Part shown: positions 26,317 to 29,600 of the stretch, in pieces
How the letters are laid out: each line of letters begins with the position of its first letter
Position numbering within the stretch: position 1 is the first letter of the stretch
Notes under the pieces: generated by a model
Databases searched by the model: none
Told to the model about the DNA's origin: nothing
The model's input: the letters and a program-made list of their open reading frames with translations, nothing else
Assembly (NCBI GenBank): GCA_038746835.1
Contig: JBCDKH010000012.1
Location: 1-37,492, forward strand
DNA length: 37,492 nucleotides
Direction: 5' to 3'
DNA from: Planctomycetota bacterium
Lineage (GTDB): Bacteria; Planctomycetota; Phycisphaerae; Tepidisphaerales; Tepidisphaeraceae
Program-made: the position numbers and the translations under genes

Positions 26317-26407
26317 GAGCGGGTCACGTTAGGAGCGCTCCGGATTCTGCAGCTGCTGATGGTGCTGAGACAAGGTGGCACCGCATACCCTCACGGCCCG
26401 CACGATC

Positions 26408-27925
26408 ATGCCAGCGACCGCCTCCGAGATCGAAAGCGTCGCCTTCGTCAGCCTCGGCTGCGCGAAGAATTTGGTCGATTCGGAGCGCATGTTGGGCCTT
26501 TTGGCGGCCGATGGGATTGCCGTCACGCCTGATCACGACGAGGCCGATGCGATCGTCATCAACACTTGCGGCTTCCTGGAGGCCAGCAAGACCGAATCGA
26601 TGGCCGAGATCAACGCGGCGATCGATTTGAAAGAGGCGGGCAAGGTCAAGCGCGTGGTGGTCGCGGGATGTTTGGTGCAGCGGCACAAGACCAAGCTGCT
26701 GGCCGACGCGCCGGGCATCGACAAGCTGGTGGGTGTCTTCGACCGCGACCACATCGTCCAGGCCGTCCGCGGCGAGCGAAACGGCGATGATGATCACTAC
26801 CTCGGCAAGTACCACGCCGTGACGCGATCGGGCTCGGCGACGACGAGCAGCGTCGCATCGACGCCGGCAGAGGCCATCCTGAACAAGCAAGCCGCCGGCA
26901 AGCGTGGCATGCGCCTGCCGACGTTCGAGGACGATCGGGCCCGGCTCCGACTCACGCCGCGGCACTTCGCGTACCTGCGGATGAGCGAGGGCTGCAACCA
27001 GGGCTGCGGCTTCTGCACGATCCCCAGCATCCGCGGCCCGATGCGGAGCAAGCCGGTCGACCACATTTTGGCTGAAGGTCAGGAACTCGCCGCCGACGGG
27101 GCGGTAGAGCTTTTGCTGATCGGGCAGGACACGACCAGCTATGGCACCGACATCGGTTGGTTCGGCCAGGGCAAAGGGCTCGCCGGTCTCCTCAAAACCC
27201 TCGACCGCGACCTGCCGGCCGACGTGGCGTGGGTCAGGCTGATGTACGCCTACCCGTCGTGTTTCACCGACGAGATGATCGACGCGCTCGCCTCATGTCG
27301 GCGGATCGTGCCGTACGTCGACATGCCGCTTCAGCACATCAACACCGACGTGCTGGCTCGCATGCGCCGCAAGGTCGACCGTGAGCTGACGACCACGCTC
27401 GTCGACAAGCTGCACGACCGCGTTCCGGGGCTGGCTTTGCGGACGACCTTCATCACCGGCACCCCCGGCGAAACCGAGGCCGAGCACCAGGAACTCGTCG
27501 ACTGGATCGCCGAGGGGCACTTCGAGCACGTGGGCGTCTTCGAGTACTCCCCCGAGCCCGGCACCCCGATGGGCCGCATGGATGGGCAAATCGGCGCCGA
27601 GACGAAGACGTGTCGCTACGGGGAACTGATGGAAGCCCAGCAGCGGGTTGTCTTCGAGCGCAATGCATCACGCGTCGGTCAGACGGTCGAGGTCATCATC
27701 GACGCCTCCCAGGGACAAGCCGACGACGGGACGCTGGTCTACGCCGGTCGAACGACCGGTCAGGCTCCGGACATCGACAGCGTCACCTACGTCGCGAGCA
27801 AGGACGAACTGCACGCGGGTCAGATCGTCGACGTGACGATTTCGGACTACCAGCACTATGACTTGGTTGGGGAGCCGAAGCGGTCAACGGCGCGGGGGCT
27901 TCCGGTGCTGGCAAAGTCACTTTAG
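26408..27925 (+). CDS. rimO: ribosomal protein S12 methylthiotransferase
   Basis: A radical SAM enzyme that adds a methylthio group to Asp of ribosomal protein S12. Counting from ATG 26408 (505 residues), the N-terminal cluster cysteines are C18 (SLGCAKN), C54 (NTCGF) and C88 (AGCLVQRH). The radical SAM triad is C196, C200 and C203 (CNQGCGFC, then TIPSIRGP). A TRAM domain closes the protein. SLGCAKNLVDSE identifies RimO rather than MiaB. A GTG at 26375 would add eleven residues. There is an insert of about 45 residues, rich in Ser, Thr and charged residues, before the radical SAM motif. The last codons and stop lie inside a palindrome shared with the convergent transposase gene. Confidence 0.94.
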   Translation: MPATASEIESVAFVSLGCAKNLVDSERMLGLLAADGIAVTPDHDEADAIVINTCGFLEASKTESMAEINAAIDLKEAGKVKRVVVAGCLVQRHKTKLLADAPGIDKLVGVFDRDHIVQAVRGERNGDDDHYLGKYHAVTRSGSATTSSVASTPAEAILNKQAAGKRGMRLPTFEDDRARLRLTPRHFAYLRMSEGCNQGCGFCTIPSIRGPMRSKPVDHILAEGQELAADGAVELLLIGQDTTSYGTDIGWFGQGKGLAGLLKTLDRDLPADVAWVRLMYAYPSCFTDEMIDALASCRRIVPYVDMPLQHINTDVLARMRRKVDRELTTTLVDKLHDRVPGLALRTTFITGTPGETEAEHQELVDWIAEGHFEHVGVFEYSPEPGTPMGRMDGQIGAETKTCRYGELMEAQQRVVFERNASRVGQTVEVIIDASQGQADDGTLVYAGRTTGQAPDIDSVTYVASKDELHAGQIVDVTISDYQHYDLVGEPKRSTARGLPVLAKSL

Positions 27926-27932
27926 TGACTTT
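27913..27932. repeat. palindrome at the left end of the RAYT cassette
   Basis: AAAGTCACT (27913-27921), two bases, AGTGACTTT (27924-27932): a perfect 9-bp inverted repeat. It contains the rimO stop TAG (27923-27925) on the plus strand and the RAYT stop TGA (27919-27917) on the minus strand. Confidence 0.9.
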
Positions 27933-28513
27933 GACGTGCGTGTCTCGGATAAGGAACCCCCGGTGAGAAACGCATCAAGCTCAAACGCACGCTTCACAGC
28001 GCGATCGATGTCGACGTTCACACGCGTGTGGAGATAGTCACACCCGTTACGAACCAGTCCGTGTCGCGCTCCTTGCGTGAGCGTGTAGCGGTAAGCGTTG
28101 CGACACTGTTTCTCGTTACGAATGCAACCGTCAAAGTATCCTTGACCAACACCATCTCCTCTCCAGAATTCTTTCCTGCGTTCGGGAAGGAGATCGTTGA
28201 CGAGCTTCGCGACACTCCCGTGCAACTTTCGCATCATGGGACCGAGCTCTCGACCCACCCGCAAGAACCCGATCGTGTGGTAGTGGTTGCTCAGCAGCGA
28301 TGTCACGAAGGGAATGAAATCGTGCTGTCCGGTGTACTTGTCAAATCGATCCCAGAAAATCGATTTGGCTTCTTCAGATGAAAATGCAGGAAATCCTGAT
28401 CTCGTCTTCGCAGTGATGAAATAAACCTGCCGGTCAAGGTACCAGTGCTCGAACTTGTGCTTTCCTTTGTAGTACTCGGGCATGCCAGGAACGCTCTTGT
28501 CGATCGATGGCAC
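27917..28513 (-). CDS. REP-associated tyrosine transposase (RAYT, Y1_Tnp superfamily)
   Basis: A 198-residue single-strand transposase of the IS200/REP type. The metal-binding HxH is H77-Y-H79 in SLLSNHYHTIGF. Aligning YFDGCIRNEKQC...AYRYTLTQGARHGLV with the common RAYT pattern RYIxxNPVxAGLV makes Y143 the likely nucleophile; the usual NP is QG here. FEHWYLDRQVYFITAKT is the family's first strand pair. The start is GTG 28513, or ATG 28483, which begins at PEYYKGKHKFEHWY; neither has a clear Shine-Dalgarno. The coding sequence looks less GC-rich than its neighbours, a sign of transfer. Flanking palindromes are likely its cognate hairpins. Confidence 0.88.
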   Translation of the reverse strand: MPSIDKSVPGMPEYYKGKHKFEHWYLDRQVYFITAKTRSGFPAFSSEEAKSIFWDRFDKYTGQHDFIPFVTSLLSNHYHTIGFLRVGRELGPMMRKLHGSVAKLVNDLLPERRKEFWRGDGVGQGYFDGCIRNEKQCRNAYRYTLTQGARHGLVRNGCDYLHTRVNVDIDRAVKRAFELDAFLTGGSLSETRTSKSLK

Positions 28514-28545
28514 GGAGCAAGAGTAGCGATTTCCATCCAGTTTCC

Positions 28546-28565
28546 AAAGTCACTAAAGTGACATT
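28546..28565. repeat. palindrome at the right end of the RAYT cassette
   Basis: AAAGTCACT (28546-28554), AA, then AGTGACATT (28557-28565): the same palindrome as at 27913-27932 with one arm mismatch (A for T) and a changed centre. It lies between the RAYT start and the ATG of the agmatine deiminase gene (28572). Confidence 0.85.
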
Positions 28566-28571
28566 GCCTCC

Positions 28572-29600
28572 ATGTCCCCCGCACCGCGCGAGCTCGACTT
28601 CCGCTTCCCACCGGAGTGGGCGCTCCACGACGCGACGTGGATGAGCTTCCCGCGCCCGGACGGACAGAGCTTTCCCGGTCGCTACGACCGAGTCCTTCCG
28701 AACCTCACGAACGTGATCCGGACGATCGCGCGATTCGAGACGGTGCGGATCAACGTCCCGGACAGAACTTGGGCACAGAAAGTCCGCGACCTCGTCGGAA
28801 GCGTCGACGTCGAGACGATCGAGATCCCGACGAATGAGCCGTGGTGCCGAGACCACGGGCCTGCGTTCGTGGTGGACGACGAAGGGGAGCTTGCCGTCGC
28901 GAACTGGCGCTACAACGCGTGGGGCGGGAAGTATCCGCCATGGGAGGACGACGACGCGGTACCGAAACGCATCGCAGAACACCTCGGCCTGCGGCTCTTT
29001 GAGCCGGGCATCGTCATGGAAGGCGGAGCGGTCGACTTCGACGGCCGAGGCTCAATCCTCACCACACGCGACTGCCTCCTCAACCCCAACCGCAACGGGA
29101 ACCTCAACATCTACGACGTCGAAGGCTACCTCCTCGACTTCTACGGTCAGGAACGCGTTCACTGGCTCACCGGCGGCATCGCGGGAGACGACACCGACGG
29201 GCACGTCGACGACCTCGCTCGCTTCATTGATCCGAACACCATCGTCGTCGGCGTCGAGGACAACCCGTCCGACGTGAACCACGCCGCGACCACCTCGGCC
29301 TACGAACAGTGCCGACAGCTCGGGTACGACGTCGTCCAACTTCCCATGCCCGGCCCGGTCGAGATCGAAGGCGAACGCATGCCCGCGACCTACGTCAATT
29401 TCAGCTTCGTCAACGGCGGGCTCGTCGTCCCGACGTACGGGCACGACAACGACGACCGCTGCCTCGCGATCCTGCGGGAACGCCTGCCGGGTCGAGAGGT
29501 CGTGGGCGTCGATTGCTCCGAGCTGATCTGGGGACTCGGGGCGGTGCACTGCCTGACGCAGCAGCAGCCGAGGCCGGAAAGCTGGAAGGAGCAAGCTTGA
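28572..29600 (+). CDS. aguA: agmatine deiminase
   Basis: It hydrolyses agmatine to N-carbamoylputrescine and ammonia, the first step of one putrescine route. It belongs to the guanidino-group-modifying (PPAD-type) fold. The 342-residue sequence shows FPPEWALHDATWMSFPR, the substrate site NEPWCRDHGP (C92, R93, D94), MEGGAVDFDGRG, the catalytic His211 in GDDTDGHVDDLARF, and the nucleophile Cys327 in LGAVHCLTQQQ. All motifs of an active enzyme are present. No Shine-Dalgarno is visible before ATG 28572, and the RAYT palindrome occupies the leader. No other polyamine gene is nearby. The stop overlaps the acpS start. Confidence 0.93.
   Translation: MSPAPRELDFRFPPEWALHDATWMSFPRPDGQSFPGRYDRVLPNLTNVIRTIARFETVRINVPDRTWAQKVRDLVGSVDVETIEIPTNEPWCRDHGPAFVVDDEGELAVANWRYNAWGGKYPPWEDDDAVPKRIAEHLGLRLFEPGIVMEGGAVDFDGRGSILTTRDCLLNPNRNGNLNIYDVEGYLLDFYGQERVHWLTGGIAGDDTDGHVDDLARFIDPNTIVVGVEDNPSDVNHAATTSAYEQCRQLGYDVVQLPMPGPVEIEGERMPATYVNFSFVNGGLVVPTYGHDNDDRCLAILRERLPGREVVGVDCSELIWGLGAVHCLTQQQPRPESWKEQA
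29586..29591 (+). promoter_or_regulatory. Shine-Dalgarno of acpS that decides a TTG start
   Basis: AAGGAG lies within the last codons of the agmatine deiminase gene, 5 nt before TTG 29597. The in-frame reading from that TTG gives an AcpS of normal length. Confidence 0.7.

Follow-up and report, generated by a model that had tools for sequence, protein, structure and literature searches.

In the window examined here, a 37,492-nucleotide stretch of DNA from a member of the Planctomycetota (Tepidisphaeraceae; assembly GCA_038746835.1, contig JBCDKH010000012.1, positions 1 to 37,492 of the forward strand), a single palindrome supplies the stop codons and the last residues of two convergent genes. 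One is rimO, which encodes the 30S ribosomal protein S12 methylthiotransferase; the other encodes a small protein resembling the repetitive extragenic palindrome (REP)-associated tyrosine transposases (RAYTs). We consider it probable that a REPtron-like cassette, in which a RAYT-type single-tyrosine (Y1) HUH gene lies between two outward-facing palindromes, has its transposase-3' end at this site, that its CTNNAG hairpin closes the frame of the cassette's own transposase, and that the same palindrome came to close rimO.

Two stop codons in one palindrome

The palindrome CAAAGTCACTTTAGTGACTTTG spans 22 nt at 27912-27933, with 10 paired bases on each side and a symmetry that is perfect save for its TT/AA center. 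An earlier note, made from the DNA alone, had placed it at 27904-27940; the palindrome is there, in a slightly shorter span. The rimO gene (26375..27925, plus strand) ends inside it with a TAG at 27923-27925, followed directly by an in-frame TGA (27923..27928 for both), while the transposase gene (27917..28513, minus strand) ends with a TGA at 27917-27919 in the palindrome's arm. The last rimO codons read CTG GCA AAG TCA CTT TAG (LAKSL*) and those of the transposase TCA AAG TCA CTA AAG TGA (SKSLK*). RimO ends in KSL and the transposase in KSLK because both frames cross the symmetric site in the same phase; the shared KSL is without a function of its own and simply follows from this entry. Sequence and frames thus agree with the two central proposals of the earlier note, namely that one palindrome provides the ends of both genes and that its symmetry makes their C-terminal residues nearly identical. 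A further proposal was that the end of the element carries stops on both strands. Each strand does have one, but a check of all frames shows the plus strand closed in only one of three, that of rimO with its tandem TAG TGA, so the statement is only partly right; the minus strand is closed in two of three, by a TAA and by the TGA of the transposase frame.

Hairpins of comparable strength (score of at least 9, loop of at most 3) occur in only four segments of the window, this palindrome included. Across the genome (3.85 Mb in 335 contigs, up to 3 mismatches allowed) the palindrome is found at two places, which are the two ends of a cassette of about 0.66 kb, and an exact match was found in none of 293 other genomes of the phylum. 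The cassette ends at 27910-27933 and 28545-28568 are 24-nt arms, 96% complementary and separated by 611 nt, and read from outside to inside both give GGCAAwGTCACTTTAGTGACTTTG. The end 3' of the transposase gene is formed by GG plus CAAAGTCACTTTAGTGACTTTG, as seen from an inverted-repeat search and a comparison of flanking GGs, and the end 5' of it by the inverted palindrome CAAAGTCACTAAAGTGACATTG plus CC, from the same kind of repeat search. The whole genome holds one copy of this cassette.

The transposase of 198 residues matches NF047646 (REP-associated tyrosine transposase) with 59.5 bits (E 3.3e-16); as this is under the equivalog cut-off of 80 bits, we describe the gene as RAYT-like. While a Pfam scan of the protein gave no match, its AlphaFold model (pLDDT 85.6) has its best fold match in the PDB in 4er8, TnpA_REP bound to a REP hairpin (E 6.5e-8, TM 0.62/0.73), followed by IS200/IS605 transposases; a sequence search of the PDB returned weak matches only, among them 4er8 at E 0.074. 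An NHYH motif lies at residues 76-79, together with Y143 and Q147. In 50 aligned homologues N76, H77 and H79 are invariant and Y143 and Q147 are conserved in at least 90%, which suggests Y143 as the catalytic residue. The flanking palindromes are probably the single-strand recognition hairpins of this enzyme.

A palindrome between convergent genes could also be a bidirectional transcription terminator, with the overlap of the stops being incidental. The RNA of either strand does fold to a hairpin (-15.1 and -13.4 kcal/mol, z -2.0 and -2.9), but the stem is weak and A+T-rich, no intrinsic-terminator-like site was found at the palindrome, and the same palindrome stands at the other cassette end, upstream of both the transposase gene and the neighboring agmatine deiminase-like gene (aguA). 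We therefore give this explanation very little weight.

Transposase stops and hairpin cores across homologues

Can the use of a hairpin as a gene end be found beyond this one locus? Homologues of the transposase were collected at 73 loci (L039-L111), of which one without a gene end (L109) and 21 duplicates, judged by the last 120 residues, were removed to leave 51. They come from Planctomycetota, mostly Phycisphaerae, with one labelled Vicinamibacteraceae, and include two broken genes (L051 and, judged by eye, L111). A few imperfect hairpin cases (L054, L071) were assessed by eye and left out of the counts. The homologues sit at unrelated loci and carry their own flanking palindromes. The earlier note had suggested scanning other RAYT loci for stops within such palindromes, and the pattern does recur, though not in the majority and with few real host genes: the transposase stop lies inside the flanking hairpin in 17 of the 51 and before it in 25, nine have no hairpin, and in no case is the hairpin read through. 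Multiplying the chances of a closed frame over those 17 palindromes gives 2.5e-7 if they are independent. With a second hairpin routine the transposase stop falls inside in 19/51, compared to 22/301 for stops that close the loci's other long frames (Fisher p 1.1e-7), and several of these 22 control stops themselves sit in RAYT palindromes.

These counts bear on a further alternative, by which the arrangement is pure chance at a single locus, where an element that inserted close to the rimO end happened to bring an in-frame stop and the palindrome does not favor stops. For the transposase's own stop this is refuted, as the excess is large and recurrent in both hairpin counts.

On a tree of 50 homologues, built from an alignment without L051 and also without the last 15 residues, the stop-in-hairpin trait changes 13 times. 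As 125 of 500 shuffles are as low, the trait is not clustered, and the 13 changes indicate that the state came and went repeatedly. In the simplest reading, a gene can do without its older stop as long as the next one still falls inside the cassette.

The palindromes themselves share a common core. A CTNNAG palindrome is present upstream in 34 and downstream in 36 of the 51 homologues, and the cores of 92 palindromes are distributed over CTTCAG/CTGAAG (55), CTTAAG (17), CTAAAG/CTTTAG (15), CTTGAG/CTCAAG (4) and CTAGAG (1), in a set that was partly selected for CTNNAG, so that other cores, such as that at L099, were missed. In all 73 distinct CTNNAG palindromes, one or both strands include a stop triplet. 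The idea of a universal two-strand stop was rejected: stops on both strands occur in 43 of these 73, against 45% with shuffled arms, which is no clear excess. What stands out is orientation. Among innermost 3' palindromes, read on the transposase strand, 20 carry the purine core, CTGAAG or CTAAAG, both of which include a stop, and 6 the pyrimidine core (p 0.009); among innermost 5' palindromes the numbers are 3 and 20 (p 0.0005). At the 3' end of the transposase gene the palindrome is thus usually oriented to read CTGAAG, CTAAAG or CTTAAG on the transposase strand. Directly outside many palindromes a GG was seen by eye, like the oriented foot of REPs. Taken together, these sequence patterns suggest that the core may be what the transposase recognizes, with the stop coming along with it.

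Of 12 RAYT-bearing genomes, 11 contain related palindromes as scattered REP-like repeats, in 2-38 copies, with none in a reversed control. The genome of the window has a second RAYT (L003, on contig G000:C87), which scores above the NF047646 cut-off and lies between CACGAWCTKMAGWTCGTG palindromes whose core is of the same kind; palindromes of this type occupy 10 sites in the genome, contigs C5, C15, C168 and C269 among them, again with none in the reversed control. In a third Y1-like gene of this genome (L005, G000:C45) the TAG stop lies at the edge of a long inverted repeat, TTAGCGGTGAGCGCTAGCGAGCC, which is also present upstream.

The end of rimO and the origin of the site

The rimO frame, whose GTG at 26375 is a mechanically chosen start, matches TIGR01125 (3.5e-132) and the Pfam families UPF0004, Radical_SAM and TRAM_2. 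The RimO profile begins at residue 22 of the product, and the match to TIGR01125 has reached the final profile position (432/432) by residue 499 of 516, so that RimO is complete. If the palindrome had brought its residues along, KSL should be missing from RimO proteins without the cassette, as the earlier note foresaw. It is absent from all 29 aligned relatives; a relative with the same residues and stop was not found among them. These 29 end 0 to about 7 unconserved residues after a conserved V-V/L/I, with the longest tail, of 15 residues, in L029. The nearest relative (71% identical) ends in VIS*. Another, L012, ends in VLAK*, and for this reason AKSL may begin with two native residues, AK. 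The palindrome would then clearly account only for S-L of the RimO tail, and probably for K, and the variable tails of the relatives suggest that such an extension is harmless.

The route by which the palindrome arrived is less straightforward. The earlier note suggested that the element had landed in the 3' end of rimO without harm. When the cassette is excised in silico and the flanks are joined in 56 ways, rimO regains a stop short of 535 aa in none of them; the frame runs for at least that length, into or past the start of the agmatine deiminase-like gene. This gene does not lie beside rimO in any of the 29 relatives' loci, nor near the other RAYT loci, and no empty site was found. As no join gives back a stop, a clean and harmless insertion is not supported. 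The original rimO stop is gone, and the site may have arisen by an insertion that entailed loss, by rearrangement, or from a REP that preceded the cassette.

The last of these can be extended into an explanation of its own, in which a REP already ended rimO and the cassette arose or recombined there later. The failure of all joins to restore a stop is what one would expect if the palindrome already was the end of rimO, and dispersed REPs that end real genes where no RAYT is present offer a precedent. Against it stands that the palindrome has no further copy, neither in this genome nor in the 293 other genomes of the phylum that were searched. We regard this order of events as unlikely.

The agmatine deiminase-like gene (28572..29600, plus strand) matches PF04371 (1.4e-106) and scores under the cut-offs of the NCBIfam agmatine deiminase models. 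Its predicted start lies 3 nt past the other palindrome of the cassette, which may also affect the upstream signals of this gene.

To see how often host genes share the fate of rimO, we considered all 70 palindrome-bearing sides at the 51 loci. A frame of at least 100 codons runs inbound on 20 of them, and 11 of these 20 end inside the palindrome. On raw counts this had seemed far above chance, a view that was dropped: the slid-window control (115/3071) is misleading, and with a chance of about 0.32 per frame the excess is weak (P 0.03). A Pfam scan of all 20 frames, for which only the part upstream of the RAYT was used on the 5' sides of L041 and L043, identified five with a known family: rimO, a squalene-hopene-cyclase-like protein (SQHop-like, L067), TruA (L069 and L086) and the N-terminal part of PurH (L107). 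All five end inside. As the two TruA cases are likely one event, there are about four events, and P is 0.004 for five or 0.011 for four. Among the frames without a Pfam match, 6/15 end inside, as by chance (P 0.35). The explanation by chance at one locus draws on the weak host-side excess, on these unmatched frames and on the fact that, among the 51 loci, a RAYT and a real host gene have a palindrome in common only in the window; the five Pfam-family frames speak against it, as do the transposase stops. We hold it to be unlikely.

In the purH case, the purH-like frame, located 5' of the RAYT, closes in the cassette palindrome after the IMP-cyclohydrolase part, which takes up roughly the first 200 of the 510 profile residues, with other frames downstream of it.

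The dispersed palindromes give a similar picture. Positions from 6 of the 12 genomes, in 60 regions, were combined into 65 groups with 130 sides and 29 inbound frames; three of the frames, picked by base composition or by eye, were scanned for families. Two are real genes that end in the palindrome with no RAYT present: one codes for an HpnN-like transporter (L136), the other for TrmD (L146), whose match reaches the end of the NCBIfam profile no more than 6 residues before the stop. The third is ileS (L143), whose frame, open at this point, runs straight through a palindrome inside the gene. Here the REP-like palindrome GGACTGGTCACTTAAGTGACCAGTCC (L143:995-1020, in G756:C11) adds residues to isoleucyl-tRNA synthetase. 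Overall, host genes are closed by palindromes now and then, mostly at complete 3' ends. Away from the RAYT, loci L082 and L087 each have a palindrome, (A)AGCCGCTAGCGGCT(T), that holds the stops of two long convergent frames on opposite strands (387/603 and 378/558 codons), which makes a second instance of convergent frames closed by a single palindrome; it is unrelated to the CTNNAG ends.

How could these pieces fit together? In the account we prefer, a transposase gene that loses its older stop would have its frame closed in the hairpin and so stay within its own cassette, presumably under selection. In the window, the same palindrome would have come to close rimO by an insertion or rearrangement that replaced the last rimO codons and the stop. 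For RimO this would have meant no essential loss and a gain of two to four residues, K-S-L included. Several observations weigh against this account. The tree is weakly resolved, its well-supported (starred) branches forcing only 4 changes of the trait, and 34 of the 51 homologues, the majority, do not have their stop in a hairpin. The transposase of the window closes at the TGA of the arm and not at the stop of the core. The constancy of the core is overstated because the palindromes were partly chosen for it, L099 having a different one, and the excision leaves rimO without a stop. A bolder version, in which the recognition hairpin itself is kept as a translation-stop module, with CTNNAG always closing the transposase frame inside the cassette and thereby letting cassettes and REPs settle harmlessly in the last codons of rimO, truA and trmD, appears improbable to us.

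Meaning and relation to known systems

If selection for the stop is real, one short motif would do two jobs, as the hairpin recognized by a single-strand transposase and as a translation stop, which would help explain how cassettes and REPs can persist within the final codons of housekeeping genes. It would also provide a concrete source of new C-terminal residues and a simple rule (CTNNAG facing the gene) that is testable across genomes. Even without selection, the window shows clearly how mobile palindromes can replace a stop codon, as already reported for GTAG REPs.

Like the RAYT/REPtron systems of Nunvar et al. (2010, PMC2817692), in which REPs lie close to the rayt stop, the cassette consists of a Y1 HUH gene between oppositely oriented palindromes. 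The HUH motif and the single tyrosine occur in a TnpA_REP-like fold, and the match to 4er8 is a likeness to the E. coli RAYT. In contrast to a REPtron, the cassette has no dispersed REPs of its own, its palindrome being present in this genome in the two end copies only. E. coli K-12 rayT also differs in its stop: the TAA ends about 4 nt before the next repeat (placed by eye) and not inside it.

Class 3 of the TnpA_Y1 transposases, known from Planctomycetes and Acidobacteria (Quentin et al. 2018, PMC6006769), shares with our family the richness in planctomycetes, the Y...Q signature, atypical secondary structures at the gene ends and REP-like copies. Its signatures are NHVH, YV[VI]xEQ with Q at Y+5 (Y----Q) and a CnGA foot, whereas the family described here has NHYH, YTLxQ with Q at Y+4 (Y---Q) and GG-type flanks. 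For IS200/IS605 elements one would look for multiple near-identical copies, and the genome contains one. TIRYT genes are bounded by inverted repeats that are palindromic in some cases (PMC3733652), an arrangement to which the 24-nt inverted ends around a tyrosine transposase, with no GTAG in them, correspond. The cassette is best called RAYT-like or TIRYT-like.

Rickettsia palindromic elements and in-frame REPs (PMC3733652) are read in frame within genes, as is the palindrome in ileS; unlike these, most palindromes here end the gene. The closest precedent is found among GTAG REPs, whose termini often supply a TAG stop to flanking open reading frames, and for which the label 3'ov denotes repeats overlapping tyrosine transposase genes at the 3' end (PMC3733652, 2013). 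In our search of the literature on stop codons with RAYT, REP or REPIN, the idea was stated only in this paper, so that stop supply by REPs and repeats overlapping transposase 3' ends are already known. GTAG REPs supply the stop through their unpaired GTAG tag, whereas the CTNNAG palindrome described here has no such tag, holds the stop in its paired core or arm, and closes a transposase and a host gene from two strands. As far as these searches show, the placement of the stop in a paired CTNNAG core, its repeated capture by the transposase gene, and its double use in the window are new.
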